Shown here: in pieces, positions 2,163 to 33,371 of the stretch
Numbering within the stretch: the first letter of the stretch is position 1
Layout: the number at the start of each line of letters is the position of its first letter
Assembly (NCBI GenBank): GCA_030699455.1
Contig: JAUYMN010000024.1
Span: forward strand, 1-34,473
Length of the DNA stretch: 34,473 nt
Source: Nanobdellota archaeon
Lineage (GTDB): Archaea; Nanobdellota; Nanobdellia; SCGC-AAA011-G17; UBA489
Direction: 5' to 3'
Program-made: the position numbers and the translations under genes
Notes under the pieces: generated by a model
The model's input: the letters and a program-made list of their open reading frames with translations, nothing else
Told to the model about the DNA's origin: nothing
Database searches by the model: none

Positions 2163-2183
2163 TTGCTTTTTCTGAATGTTTTT

Positions 2184-5150
2184 ATGGCAATTCCTAAAGA
2201 AATAAAGAAAATAAATGATTATGTTTGGGAGCTACCTGTATCTTATAAGAAAGGTATGAATGTTCCTGCAAGAATTATTGTTAGCGAGGAAATGTTGAAA
2301 GCTGTCGATGATGGCGTTTTTGACCAAGTTACTAATGTTGCATGCATGCCTGGAATTCAAAAGTATTCCATATGTATGCCAGATTGTCATTGGGGATACG
2401 GAATGCCAATAGGGGGGGTGGCAGCGTTTGATTTGGAAAAAGGTGTTATAAGCCCAGGAGCGATAGGATTTGATATTAACTGTCTGACCAAAGATTCAAA
2501 AATTCTTTTGAATTATGGATGTTACAAAAAGATTAAGAATTTTGACAACAATTTTGAGAGTGATAAGATTTCATTTATGGATTTAAACAATAATTCAAAG
2601 AAAAGTTCCAATGCGGTACTATATATGAAGAAGATGCCAGACAACAGAGTTATTAAGATAACTACAAAGTCAGGCGAGGAAATAACTGTAACAGAAGATC
2701 ATCCAATTTATACTGGAAAAGAAATGATTAATGCTGGAGAACTCAATAAAGGGGATAATGTTGTCGTACATCCTTTTATTGGCGTTGAGTATTCTGAACC
2801 AAGCGATAAAATTATTGTCGATGAGAAAGACATTATTGCGCTAGTTGGTGATAGACCCAAGTTAATTGTGACATTGAAAGAAAAGGGATTATTGCCTTTA
2901 AGAGAAAATTCTGATAAACTTCCAATTCTTACAAAACTTTTAGGATTTATTATGGGAGATGGGTGGATTGGTAAGAACTATAATAAAAATAGGAAACAAG
3001 ATGTTTGGAGTACAAGGGTTATTGGTTCTGCTGAAGATTTGGAGACTGTTAGAACGGATATTAGAAATTTAGGATATGTAACCAATTATGTTACAACTAA
3101 AAAGTATGATAGCATAGTAAGTGAGATTAGTGGGGAAAAAAGAAATATCTCTGGAAAGTCAACTCAATTATATGTTAATTCTCAATCATTTACAGTTTTG
3201 CTAAAGGCTCTTGGAATGACAGAAGGAAATAAATCTAAAAATTTGTCTTTTGTTCCTGAATGGGTTAAAGAATCTCCATTATGGATAAAAAGGCTTTATC
3301 TTGCTGGACTTTTTGGAGCTGAAATGACAAAGCCTTGTCAAAGAAAGGGGGAATATAAATCGTTTACAGAACCAAGTTTTAGCCAAAATAAAATTCTAGA
3401 ATTGTGGGATAATAACTATGAATTTATTACAGATATTATTAATATGCTTTCAGAGTTTGGTGTTGAAGTTAATAATATTTATAACCAAAAAGGCGTTATT
3501 AATAAATATGGGGAAACTACTGGAAAAATTGCATTTAGAATTTCTGCAAAAATTGATAATCTGATTAATTTGTGGAGCAAAGTTGGTTATGAATATTGCA
3601 AAAAAAGAAAAGAATTGTCTATGCAAGCCCTGTCTTATCTTAAAATGAAAAGAGTAATTTTGAAGGAATCTGATTTATTTGTTGAAGAAATGAAGTTAAT
3701 CCATAATGAAGGTGCTAATAATGGTGAGATAAGTATTTTGGCTCAGCAGAATGGACACAGTGTATCACAGGTTCTGGGAAGGCTTTACAGTAATTCTAAA
3801 TCATCAAGGGCGTGCTCTGATTTTCCAACATTTCAACAGTTTATTGAAAAACATACAATTTTGAATTCTGAATTTGTTTTAGATGAGATTACAGATATAG
3901 AGGAAATTAATTATAGAGATTATGTTTATGATTTCACAATGAATGATGAAAATCATAATTTTATAGCAAATTCAATAGTTACGAGTAACTGTGGCATGAG
4001 GTTGATTACAACTAATTTAACATTAAAAGAAGTTAAACCAAAGATAAAGCAATTGGTTGATCATTTGTATATGACTGTGCCTTCTGGCGTTGGTTGCAAG
4101 GGGTTTTTGAAGTTAAATGATAAACAATTTGATGATATCATGGTCGAAGGAACAAAATGGTGTGTTGACAATGGCTATGGGTGGGACAAGGATGTATGGC
4201 GCACTGAAAGTTATGGCAAAATAGAAGGAGCTGATCCTCAAAAAGTTTCTCAAAGAGCTAGGAGCAGAGGGATTAATCAATTGGGGACATTAGGTTCAGG
4301 TAACCATTATTTAGAAATACAAGTTGCACTCAAGGAAAATATATTTGATCCGGTGATTGCCAGCAAATTTGGAATTAATAAGGAGGATCAGGTTGTCATT
4401 ATGGTGCATTGTGGTTCAAGAGGATTTGGACACCAAATTGCTACTGATTATCTGAAGATTTTTAATGATGCAATGGGCAAATATAACATAAAAGTTTATG
4501 ATAGGGAATTGGCTTGTGCTCCATTTAAGAGCAAAGAAGGGCAGGATTATTTTAGTGCTATGGCATGTGCTGCAAATATGGCCTTTGCAAACAGGCAGAT
4601 GATTACACATAGGATTAGGGAAGGATTTTCCAAGGTGTTTGGCAAAAGTCCGCAGGAATTAGAGATGAATCTTGTTTACGATGTGGCACATAATATAGCC
4701 AAGATTGAAGAACATATGATTGATGGCAAAATGAAAAAGGTTTTGGTTCATAGGAAAGGTGCTACAAGGGCTTTTCCTCCCAAACATAGGGAATTGAATC
4801 CTGAATATAGGCCTATAGGACAGCCGGTTATTTTAGGTGGCAGTATGGAGACTGGCTCCCATTTATTAGTTGGAACACAAAAAGCAATGGATGAAACTTT
4901 TGGTAGCACCGCGCATGGTTCAGGAAGAACAATGTCAAGAACTAAAGCTAAGAAGGAATTTGAAGGAAAGAGTTTATTGGACAGCATGATAAAAAAAGGA
5001 ATTTATGTCAGAAGTGGGAGCATGAAAGGATTGGCTGAGGAAGCAGGTGGTGCTTATAAAAATATTAATCAGGTTGTGGGAGTTTTAGATAGCTATGGAA
5101 TAACTAAGAAGGTTGTTGGTTTGAAACCGATAGGTAATGTTAAAGGGTAG
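2184..5150 (+). CDS. rtcB: RtcB tRNA-splicing ligase containing an intein
   Basis: RtcB joins the 2',3'-cyclic phosphate and 5'-OH ends left by the tRNA splicing endonuclease, using GTP and Mn2+. The precursor has 988 residues from the ATG at 2184; the frame opens at TTG 2163, but the TATA box position and family alignment favour 2184. Removal of a 503-residue intein leaves a 485-residue ligase, close to the usual length of about 480. Visible family motifs are CMPDCHWGYGMPIGG, the interrupted GFDIN/CGMRL, GSGNHYLEIQ, VHCGSRGFGH, DVAHNIAK, ILGGSMETGSHLL and STAHGSGR, whose His is the expected guanylylated residue. The intein sits directly before Cys100, equivalent to the Mn-binding Cys98 of Pyrococcus RtcB. 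Archease, the RtcB activator, follows 103 nt downstream. Confidence 0.97.
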   Translation: MAIPKEIKKINDYVWELPVSYKKGMNVPARIIVSEEMLKAVDDGVFDQVTNVACMPGIQKYSICMPDCHWGYGMPIGGVAAFDLEKGVISPGAIGFDINCLTKDSKILLNYGCYKKIKNFDNNFESDKISFMDLNNNSKKSSNAVLYMKKMPDNRVIKITTKSGEEITVTEDHPIYTGKEMINAGELNKGDNVVVHPFIGVEYSEPSDKIIVDEKDIIALVGDRPKLIVTLKEKGLLPLRENSDKLPILTKLLGFIMGDGWIGKNYNKNRKQDVWSTRVIGSAEDLETVRTDIRNLGYVTNYVTTKKYDSIVSEISGEKRNISGKSTQLYVNSQSFTVLLKALGMTEGNKSKNLSFVPEWVKESPLWIKRLYLAGLFGAEMTKPCQRKGEYKSFTEPSFSQNKILELWDNNYEFITDIINMLSEFGVEVNNIYNQKGVINKYGETTGKIAFRISAKIDNLINLWSKVGYEYCKKRKELSMQALSYLKMKRVILKESDLFVEEMKLIHNEGANNGEISILAQQNGHSVSQVLGRLYSNSKSSRACSDFPTFQQFIEKHTILNSEFVLDEITDIEEINYRDYVYDFTMNDENHNFIANSIVTSNCGMRLITTNLTLKEVKPKIKQLVDHLYMTVPSGVGCKGFLKLNDKQFDDIMVEGTKWCVDNGYGWDKDVWRTESYGKIEGADPQKVSQRARSRGINQLGTLGSGNHYLEIQVALKENIFDPVIASKFGINKEDQVVIMVHCGSRGFGHQIATDYLKIFNDAMGKYNIKVYDRELACAPFKSKEGQDYFSAMACAANMAFANRQMITHRIREGFSKVFGKSPQELEMNLVYDVAHNIAKIEEHMIDGKMKKVLVHRKGATRAFPPKHRELNPEYRPIGQPVILGGSMETGSHLLVGTQKAMDETFGSTAHGSGRTMSRTKAKKEFEGKSLLDSMIKKGIYVRSGSMKGLAEEAGGAYKNINQVVGVLDSYGITKKVVGLKPIGNVKG
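2481..3989 (+). mobile_element. LAGLIDADG intein in RtcB
   Basis: In-frame protein-splicing element of 503 residues. It starts with Cys1 (CLTKDSK) at the splice junction; block B is visible as TVTEDHPIY with Thr and His. Two dodecapeptide homing-endonuclease motifs follow, GFIMGDGW near intein residue 155 and LAGLFGAEM near 274. Block F reads YDFTMNDENHNFIAN, and the C-terminal end is VTSN followed by +1 Cys. The terminal Asn and both Cys nucleophiles are present. The penultimate residue is Ser where His is usual. The insertion point is the active-site Cys motif of RtcB; from memory this is also the site used in Pyrococcus RtcB. A HTH-like segment may lie between the endonuclease and block F. 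Confidence 0.95.
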
Positions 5151-7518: not shown

Positions 7519-7800
7519 ATGACAACTGATAACATAACTAATAGACATGGAAGACCAAGACACTCAGAAGAAATCATCTCTGATTTGGCAGAAATATTAA
7601 TCCGCAATGATGAATGCTTTTTGGAAGGGATTCCTGAAAGAAGGACACACGTGGAGGAAATTGCACACATTGTCGGTAGATATGCTTTCGGTTCAGGCAC
7701 ATTCAGCCATGATGTACTTGCTCCTTATAGGAGAATACTGAGGAATTCCGGATATGGTGAGATTTCCCCTGAAGATTTAAGTGGGGATACCAGGATTTGA
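7519..7800 (+). CDS. Hypothetical small protein, 93 aa
   Basis: Unrecognised charged helical protein. The frame opens at TTG 7504, but a TATA-like TTTTTTAAAT at about 7482-7491 places transcription start near 7515, so the ATG at 7519 is the likely leaderless start. The C-terminal six codons and the stop lie antisense to the acceptor and T-arm of the tRNA-Trp gene (7782-7868, minus strand). The sequence is rich in Arg, Glu, Ile and His and has no membrane segment. The overlap is tolerable because the genes converge, but it lowers confidence that the annotated C-terminus is conserved. Confidence 0.5.
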   Translation: MTTDNITNRHGRPRHSEEIISDLAEILIRNDECFLEGIPERRTHVEEIAHIVGRYAFGSGTFSHDVLAPYRRILRNSGYGEISPEDLSGDTRI

Positions 7801-7868
7801 ACCTGGATCTACCGGTGACTCCTTAATATCTGGAGCCGGCAACACTAACCGAGTTATGCTACATCCCC
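7782..7868 (-). tRNA. tRNA-Trp (CCA) with a 13-nt intron
   Basis: Reads on the minus strand as acceptor GGGGATG paired with TATCCCC, D-stem GCAT/GTGT, T-arm CCAGG-TTCAAAT-CCTGG and discriminator A. The anticodon stem GCCGG/CCGGT closes only if 13 nt (7817-7829) are removed between positions 37 and 38, giving loop CTCCAGA with anticodon CCA. The precursor forms a bulge-helix-bulge: central helix CTCC/GGAG, bulges AG|A and TC|A. The mature length is 74 nt; CCA is not encoded. A TATA-like TTTTTAAAT lies about 25-35 nt upstream on the minus strand. Archaeal tRNA-Trp commonly has an intron here, usually a longer one; this is near the minimum. Confidence 0.93.
7817..7829 (-). other. BHB intron of tRNA-Trp, position 37/38
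   Basis: 13-nt intron bounded by two three-base bulges flanking a perfect CTCC/GGAG helix. The intron provides GGAG and a six-base loop, leaving almost no internal helix. Confidence 0.9.
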
Positions 7869-24515: not shown

Positions 24516-25202
24516 TTAGAAGTCTGTTAAACTTTTTTGTTTTTTGCTGTTTGTTACTCTTTTGTAAGTTGCCCATGTTTTCCTGAAAATTTTATCATAT
24601 TTGCTATGATTTTCTTTCAGAAATTCTTGTGTGGTTGGGTCGCTTGGGTAGCCAGAGCCGCAGTTTCCATACTCTGTTTTTATTTTTTCTATCTCCCTAT
24701 CTCTGATTACCTTTGCTAATATTGATGCTGCTGATACTACTGGATATTTTTCATCTGCCTTATGCTCTAGTTTTAGGTCTGCTTTTACTTCTATATGTTT
24801 TTTTAAGAATTCTTTGAATGCAGGGATGTTATTGCTTGGAGCGTCTATGATTGCCTCATCCGGTTCCAAAGAATTTATTATTTCTGCAATTTTTAATCCT
24901 TCCAGCCAGTTTAAGTTTAAATCGGGATTATTTAATGCTGCATCTATTTCTTCCGGTTCAACTATTAAGATTAAATATTCTGATATTGCTTTTATTTTTT
25001 CAAATAAATCTTCTCTTTGTAGTTTTGTTAATTGTTTAGAATCCTTTACTTTAAGCTTTTTTAATAATTCTAAGTTAGATTCATCTACCATGACTCCGGC
25101 TATTACTAGTGGACCTATGAGTGGACCCCTTACGGTGAGAAAAGAATCTCTTTACTCATTTCCGGCTTCGTCCACACCACAAACTAGCTTTTTTCCTTCC
25201 AT
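24516..25202 (-). CDS. rnhB: RNase HII, coding region split by a 30-nt BHB-like insert
   Basis: Ribonuclease HII cleaves RNA in RNA-DNA hybrids and at single ribonucleotides. The obvious frame starts at ATG 25091 and lacks the first catalytic motif, but upstream on the same strand two pieces restore it. ATG 25202 begins MEGKKLVCGVDEAG, and after 30 nt (25130-25159) the frame continues RGPLIGPLVIAGVMVDES. Removing the 30 nt rebuilds DEAGRGP with catalytic Asp and Glu, giving 218 aa, normal for the family. Other motifs: KDSKQLTKLQRE, DAPSNN, HKADEKYPVVSAASILAKVIRDR, GSGYPSDP. Read without removal, translation stops after 16 codons. The frame is also open upstream to ATG 25307, adding a winged-helix-like 35 residues. 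Alternative: a recently broken pseudogene. Confidence 0.85.
25130..25159 (-). other. Candidate BHB intron in rnhB mRNA
   Basis: 30-nt insert inside the DEAG/RGP codons. Its arms UGAGUAAAG and CUUUUCUCA form a hairpin with one U-U mismatch. Flanking it, CCGG and CCGU form a four-position helix (three pairs), with three-base bulges AA|A and AA|G, and exon sequences GUGGAC and GUCCAC pair further out. Cutting after the second base of each bulge, as in the tRNA introns here, gives exactly the in-frame junction. It contains an in-frame TAA. Confidence 0.7.
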
Positions 25203-25326
25203 ACTTCTAATCCATTTTTTGTCTGTGTTTTTTACTAATCCTTCCTTTTCTAGGTTTCTTAATCGCCTGCTAATTACTTTTCTTGATTTGGAAAGATATT
25301 TAAACATTTAGCCTTAATTTTTACTT

Positions 25327-32432: not shown

Positions 32433-33131
32433 ATGAAAAATATTAATATTATAAAAAAAATAACTCCTGAACTGGCTTATATCTGTGGTGTTTTAGCGGG
32501 AGATGGTAGTATCAATATCAGAGAGGAAAAAGGTGATTATGAGATTAAATGTGTAGGAAATCCAAAAGATGAAAAGGAATATTATCAGCAAGTTGTATTT
32601 CCTTTGTTTTTTTATCTCTTTGGCTTGAATGTTAAACCAAGATACTTTGATAAAAATACAACATATGGTATAAGAATCTGGTCTAAAAATTTGGTAAAAT
32701 ACCTTACAGAATATATTGGACTTCCCTCTGGTAAAAAATACGATTTTTTAAAAATCCCATTGATATTTTATCACGATAAAAAATTGATAAGATATTTTAT
32801 CACTGGTTTATTTGATACTGATTTTTCTATAAGCATTGGAAAGAATGATTATCCTCGCATAAGGGGTGTTTCTAAAAGTGAATGTTTTATCAATGAGATT
32901 ATTGATTTTTTATGGAGTGATGGTTTTGTTGTTAGTAAATTTAAAAGAGATTACTATGATGGTAGGGTTAAGAAAAATCTCGTTAATTATGAAGTTTGCC
33001 TGTCTGGTCGTAAAAATCTAAATCTCTGGATTAGAAACATAGGAACATTTCATAATAGGCACATCAAGAAAATAAAAATAGCGGAGAGAGGATTTGAACC
33101 TCTGACCTTTACCCAAGCCTTTATATCTTGA
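32433..33131 (+). CDS. Free-standing LAGLIDADG homing endonuclease
   Basis: Single-chain double-motif endonuclease of 232 aa. Motif one is CGVLAGDGS (18-26) and motif two ITGLFDTDF (123-131), each with the acidic metal-binding residue. Between them lie typical DNA-binding strands (YYQQVVFPLFFYLFGL; GIRIWSKNLVKYL). It has its own CTTTAAATT box at 32404-32412 at leaderless spacing. The last 17 residues (from about 216) are encoded antisense to the 3' exon and third intron of the initiator tRNA-Met gene, and the stop lies inside that intron, so the true ancestral C-terminus probably ended near 33075. Its neighbour's introns carry no ORF, so it may act in trans on them. Confidence 0.9.
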   Translation: MKNINIIKKITPELAYICGVLAGDGSINIREEKGDYEIKCVGNPKDEKEYYQQVVFPLFFYLFGLNVKPRYFDKNTTYGIRIWSKNLVKYLTEYIGLPSGKKYDFLKIPLIFYHDKKLIRYFITGLFDTDFSISIGKNDYPRIRGVSKSECFINEIIDFLWSDGFVVSKFKRDYYDGRVKKNLVNYEVCLSGRKNLNLWIRNIGTFHNRHIKKIKIAERGFEPLTFTQAFIS

Positions 33132-33135
33132 CTTT
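33109..33135 (-). other. BHB intron 3 of tRNA-iMet, position 43/44
   Basis: 27 nt. Central helix ACCC/GGGU, bulges GG|A and AA|A, internal helix AAGUC/GGCUU. The stop codon of the convergent LAGLIDADG gene falls inside it on the other strand. Confidence 0.9.
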
Positions 33136-33141
33136 CCGGGT

Positions 33142-33165
33142 GTCTCTGGTTCCGTTAGGATACCT
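33142..33165 (-). other. BHB intron 2 of tRNA-iMet, position 37/38
   Basis: 24 nt. Central helix CUCA/AGAG (three pairs and one A-A mismatch), bulges UA|A and AC|A, internal helix GGU/ACC. Same site as most archaeal tRNA introns. Confidence 0.88.
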
Positions 33166-33173
33166 TATGAGCC

Positions 33174-33210
33174 TTCCGCAATTCTTCGGATTAATCTAAC
33201 CTAGGAATTT
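33174..33210 (-). other. BHB intron 1 of tRNA-iMet, position 29/30
   Basis: 37 nt. Central helix CCGU/GCGG, bulges CG|A and AA|G, internal helix AAUUC/GAAUU. All pairs form, one of them G-U. Confidence 0.9.
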
Positions 33211-33371
33211 CGACGGACACTCCTAACTGTCCTACCCCGCTGGTTTAGAGGAATTCTGTTGTGTTTTTAAAGCTTGTTGAATTGGATAAATGCGGATGTT
33301 ATTGATTAAATCTAAAAATATCAGATTGAATGTTAAAATACGCTCAAATCAGCAAAAAGTTGCTTCAAAAC

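Follow-up and report, generated by a model that had tools for sequence, protein, structure and literature searches.

To judge from its sequence and those of its relatives, the gene for RNase HII (rnhB) of a Nanobdellota archaeon is very probably interrupted by a pre-mRNA intron like those of archaeal tRNAs. The gene lies on the minus strand of the window (the whole stretch of DNA analyzed, 34,473 nucleotides), where DEAG and RGP are parted by 30 nt (positions 25159 to 25130). The frame at 24516-25211 translates as ...KKLVCGVDEAG NE*RDSFLTV RGPLIGPLV..., with its stop at 24516 and an in-frame TAA inside the insert. Deletion of 25159-25130 in silico regains DEAGRGP with the frame kept, and the minus-strand translation thus confirmed what a preliminary description of this DNA had proposed. 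The insert can be slid by up to 2 bases with the product unchanged (25161-25132 and 25160-25131 are equivalent placements), 25159-25130 being the register with the best bulge-helix-bulge (BHB). The putative intron reads AUGAGUAAAGAGAUUCUUUUCUCACCGUAA and the predicted spliced junction ...GCCGGAAGGGGTCC... Exon 1 (25160-25307, minus strand) runs up to ...GVDEAG and takes in one further base, the first of the Arg codon; it holds the catalytic D and E and could start either at an ATG at 25202 or, given a short winged-helix-like extension, at one at 25307. Exon 2 (24516-25129, minus strand) extends from RGPLIGPLV... to the stop codon, TAA, and on its own matches PF01351 with an E value of 4e-40. 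Among the intron-bearing genes, a winged-helix-like N-terminal extension precedes RNase HII in exon 1 of L001, L050, L052, L064, L068, and L189.

The register of the window gene is CCGG-AA|A-UGAG...CUCA-CCGU-AA|G. Exon 1 supplies one strand of the central helix, the 5' one (CCGG, 25162-25165), and the intron the other, 3' strand (CCGU, 25132-25135); together they form three G-C pairs and one C-U mismatch at the exon-proximal pair, one pair below canonical. Cuts are predicted after 25160 in the 5' bulge (AA|A, 25159-25161) and after 25130 in the 3' bulge (AA|G, 25129-25131), all on the minus strand, and the intron stem (UGAG/CUCA, then AAAGA/UCUUU) is interrupted by an unpaired U. The hairpin and the mismatched BHB with bulges cut after the second base, both described beforehand, were found again in the best register and in the minimum-free-energy fold, which includes the hairpin, the three central pairs, and a 3-nt bulge (z of about -2.6). 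Relatives do not conserve the additional exon-exon pairing GUGGAC/GUCCAC that is present in this gene, which makes it probably incidental and places it outside the conserved structure.

Archaeal tRNA and rRNA BHB introns have a helix of four positions and two 3-nt bulges, each cut after its second base. The rnhB insert has the same geometry, with two 3-nt bulges, a four-position helix, and a predicted cut that regenerates the mature sequence; unlike those introns, it lies in a coding sequence, where the reading frame must be restored. The tRNA-Trp(CCA) of the window (7781-7868, minus strand) has a 13-nt BHB intron (CUCC AG|A ... GGAG UC|A) with an identical cut geometry. The earlier comparison to four tRNA introns of the window stands for this tRNA, while a Ser-like tRNA near 33079-33241 (minus strand), which may hold several introns, was called by one of two ARAGORN settings and not by Rfam. 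Other kinds of intervening sequence were considered and rejected. Group I and II self-splicing introns possess a conserved catalytic RNA core of hundreds of nucleotides; the insert has 30 nt and the window gave no Rfam intron match. An intein would be an open, in-frame insert with a splicing domain, whereas the window insert contains a stop codon and the majority of those found at this site in other genomes shift the frame.

The nearest named rnhB genes belong to Woesearchaeota (DPANN, class Nanoarchaeia), which places the host there as well. Comparison with relatives yielded 38 distinct inserts of 19 to 45 nt at the same site. They all come from one archaeal class, where they occur in at least 20 family-level groups (counted by group codes) and in about 9% of the sampled rnhB-bearing genomes. 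Within the order, rnhB was present in 89 of 103 genomes and 20 of these 89 had an insert at the identical site. A covariance model made from 23 inserts, to which intronless sites match over 36 nt and intron-bearing ones over more than 50 nt, was applied to a class sample (346 of 378 genomes with rnhB), where it recovered the 20, a relic in G031, and 10 more genomes. A search of the phylum added seven introns, all in class Nanoarchaeia, and a GTDB scan one (L099), whereas the fetched GTDB rnhB genes of other archaea (Thermococci, Bathyarchaeota, Thermoplasmatota, and others) had no insert. Candidatus Jingweiarchaeum tengchongense (L102) is among the carriers, as is CP066683.1, a Woesearchaeota genome in a single contig. 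The rarity of archaeal mRNA introns assumed in the preliminary description was thus too modest a picture, as the rnhB intron recurs throughout the class. Assembly or sequencing error could be suspected in a draft genome of 28 contigs, but differing inserts occur at one site in dozens of independent assemblies, including the one-contig CP066683.1, and we give this explanation practically no weight. In one genome (G021), the rnhB gene L055:511-2550(-) bears a BHB intron together with an intein (Intein_splicing and LAGLIDADG domains); L051 (G011) has a similarly long rnhB frame without the intron.

All 38 loci fit a BHB with two 3-nt bulges and a predicted cut behind base 2 of each, in which the exon sequence surrounding the glycine codon of DEAG, typically NGGN, is paired to NCCN in the 3'-terminal part of the intron. 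The central helix has all four pairs in 32 loci and three in the other six, namely, the window gene and L052 (register shifted by one base, hand-derived) and four more, with every mismatch at the exon-proximal pair. When the 3' strands were shuffled among the 38 introns, complete helices numbered 7.2 on average and 17 at most, against the real 32. For the nine-pair structure of 23 introns, 90.1% of the cells were paired versus 61.7% after shuffling, covariation reached 0.724 versus 0.197 (0 of 500 shuffles), and controls with one side slid were 26 to 49% paired. The covariation across inserts, which in relatives affects the counterpart of the window gene's helix, supports the BHB fold directly. 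In silico, joining after the second bulge base gave G-R-G at the junction of every locus, 36 of them read in the standard register and two, the window gene and L052, with the register moved by one base. That 38 differing inserts share both the site and the motif is more than chance would give.

None of the 38 inserts can be translated through. Their lengths modulo 3 are distributed 11/15/12, and 27 of them shift the frame. A TAA read as sense, or insert residues forming part of the protein, would agree with the length of the window insert, a multiple of three; given the 27 frameshifting inserts, and since the gene itself terminates at TAA, we consider such a reading extremely improbable. A short hairpin inside a coding sequence would in principle also be compatible with ribosomes that bypass it on unspliced RNA. 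Bypassing is nonetheless very improbable, as matching take-off and landing codons are absent at the junction and conservation falls, instead of on a take-off signal, on features recognized by the tRNA splicing endonuclease (EndA), namely the 3-nt bulges and the central helix between exon and intron.

The TAA within the insert could alternatively mean that the gene has been disabled and that rnhB is a pseudogene here, and G031 does hold a relic intron-bearing copy. Exon 2, however, is intact and under purifying selection: between the window gene and same-genus genes, pN was 0.17 to 0.21 and pS 0.61 to 0.79, pairs without introns gave similar values, and this exon evolves no faster than in the intronless sister genes. 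Both exons and the covarying motif have been kept at one site in 38 loci. RNase HI was undetected in 28 of the 29 genomes checked, including that of the host, so RNase HII is probably the main or sole RNase H of these genomes. A pseudogene is therefore quite improbable, although slightly less so than bypassing. Two findings that could have spoken against the intron, a second rnhB elsewhere in the genome or relatives with the insert decayed inside a pseudogene, did not appear: PF01351 has a single match in the host assembly (28 contigs, 82.7% complete) and likewise in the intron-bearing one-contig genome G014, and the 38 loci show differing inserts with exon 2 intact. The constraint on exon 2, together with the undetected RNase HI, suggests that splicing is probably needed for RNase HII. 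In the G031 relic (L171, G031:C8:1361-1425), the intron-bearing copy has an internal deletion and an intact intronless rnhB is also present, indicating that the intron-bearing copy can be lost.

We propose that, in the folded rnhB transcript, the final bases of the intron would pair with exon bases around the invariant glycine codon of DEAG, creating the bulge-helix-bulge. EndA would then cut both 3-nt bulges behind their second base and the ligase RtcB would join the exons. The mature mRNA would encode DEAGRGP and hence an active RNase HII, whose activity would depend on both cutting and ligation; unspliced mRNA would give only truncated products lacking part of the active site. The interpretation given at the outset, in which active RNase HII would depend on the tRNA splicing machinery, is supported, among other things, by the covariation and by the presence of both genes. 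RtcB, the expected exon joiner, is encoded in the window itself (2163-5150, plus strand), split by an intein at about residues 116 to 608. The host genome has one EndA gene, of 175 amino acids, with the N-terminal and catalytic domains. Its nearest solved structure by sequence is the Nanoarchaeum equitans catalytic subunit, which in the alignment shows a short extra loop that the host protein lacks. Of the 28 genomes that gave an EndA match, none yielded a second subunit above the family cut-off, which suggests a homomeric alpha-type enzyme, and a divergent second subunit may exist. According to a review, relaxed motifs are efficiently removed only by heteromeric and epsilon-type EndA (PMC6379350), which fits the mostly canonical motifs of the rnhB introns. 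The case against splicing of the window intron lies in its C-U mismatch, homomeric alpha-type EndA having been described as narrow in specificity (PMC6379350), and in the stem broken by an unpaired U.

Regarding the origin of the intron, same-genus relatives of the host have an rnhB without the insert and with the site otherwise intact; in one of the same genus, G002 (98% complete), no RNase HII was found. The window gene clusters with the intronless same-genus genes (SH-aLRT of 96), a grouping by which it is the native copy and on which horizontal transfer of an intron-bearing gene into the host was rejected. The window intron and that of L052 have in common the first nine bases of the stem strand, the AA| bulge, and the mismatched outer pair, which suggests kinship, although the arm match alone might arise by chance among 703 pairs. 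Overall, similarity of the intron 5' arms did not correlate with protein identity (rho of -0.05), which points to very rapid intron evolution or to regain. One pair, L064 and L065 (G074 and G073), has exon 2 proteins 95% identical and unlike intron sequences, also suggesting very fast turnover or regain. Presence and absence are scattered over the rnhB tree, on which parsimony required 29 changes of intron state, 11 of them forced by well-supported branches, versus 34 after shuffling. Parsimony on this tree does not distinguish gain from loss, and rapid loss, recurrent gain, or a combination of the two may lie behind the pattern.

A second gene of the class shows a similar interruption. A cbf5 search of 29 of these genomes revealed broken reading frames, and a small cbf5 model identified seven clear introns of 15 to 22 nt in Woesearchaeota of the order (L199-L205, in G037, G021, G086, G062, G063, G033, and G044) and a probable one of about 12 nt in another family (L207, G223). 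They interrupt the codon of the catalytic Asp after its first letter, just where the crenarchaeal cbf5 intron lies, and their central helices are complete and show compensatory change (CCUU/AAGG, CGUU/AACG). These putative introns provide independent support for pre-mRNA splicing in class Nanoarchaeia. A further cbf5 gene, L193 (G060:C4), has an intact GTLDP site and, downstream, an internal deletion with a frame change.

The cbf5 pre-mRNA intron of Crenarchaeota is the known precedent (Watanabe 2002; Yokobori 2009, PMC2738675). Both that intron and the one in rnhB are short BHB introns at a catalytic motif (16 to 44 bp in crenarchaeal cbf5 and 19 to 45 nt in rnhB), with the cut, predicted in the case of rnhB, between bulge bases 2 and 3 and a patchy presence among relatives. 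As in cbf5, the interrupted motif is conserved and catalytic (DEAG / GP of RNase HII), and no insert is open through. They differ in the gene, RNase HII, and in the phylum, Nanoarchaeia within DPANN, as well as in the motifs, mostly canonical four-pair BHBs in rnhB and mostly unconventional in crenarchaeal cbf5. Crenarchaea moreover possess a heteromeric EndA, which has been proposed as what gave rise to mRNA introns (PMC2738675), while in the host only one EndA gene, of the alpha type, was found. In Haloferax volcanii, HVO_1309 has a BHB intron in its 5'-UTR and is an mRNA substrate of an archaeal splicing endonuclease (PMC7714728); that intron lies in an untranslated leader, whereas the one in rnhB breaks the coding sequence at the active site. 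According to the same 2020 paper, cbf5 of Crenarchaeota was, besides the 5'-leader case, the only archaeal mRNA with a BHB intron (PMC7714728). Full-text searches, mostly of open papers and excluding preprints, returned no report of an rnhB intron. Measured against that literature, the novelty lies in the gene and lineage concerned and in a mostly canonical motif alongside a single alpha-type EndA; the mechanism is known from cbf5.

The intron-bearing genes seen so far are rnhB and cbf5. A broader idea, which we advance tentatively and rate at a little under even, is that Nanoarchaeia have general and dynamic BHB pre-mRNA introns that repeatedly enter, or are repeatedly lost from, catalytic-motif codons of essential genes, relying on an alpha-type EndA that is homomeric and on motifs that are mostly canonical. 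If so, a heteromeric EndA of relaxed specificity would not be what enabled archaeal mRNA introns, and further intron-bearing genes would be hidden as annotated frameshifts or pseudogenes. The rnhB introns, in at least 38 loci at one active-site nucleotide position, already challenge the heteromeric-EndA proposal. They also offer many presence/absence pairs for the study of intron gain and loss, and gene calling in the genomes that bear them probably yields a truncated RNase HII or none. Altogether, they suggest that mRNA splicing in archaea is far more widespread than the classic cbf5 case implied.
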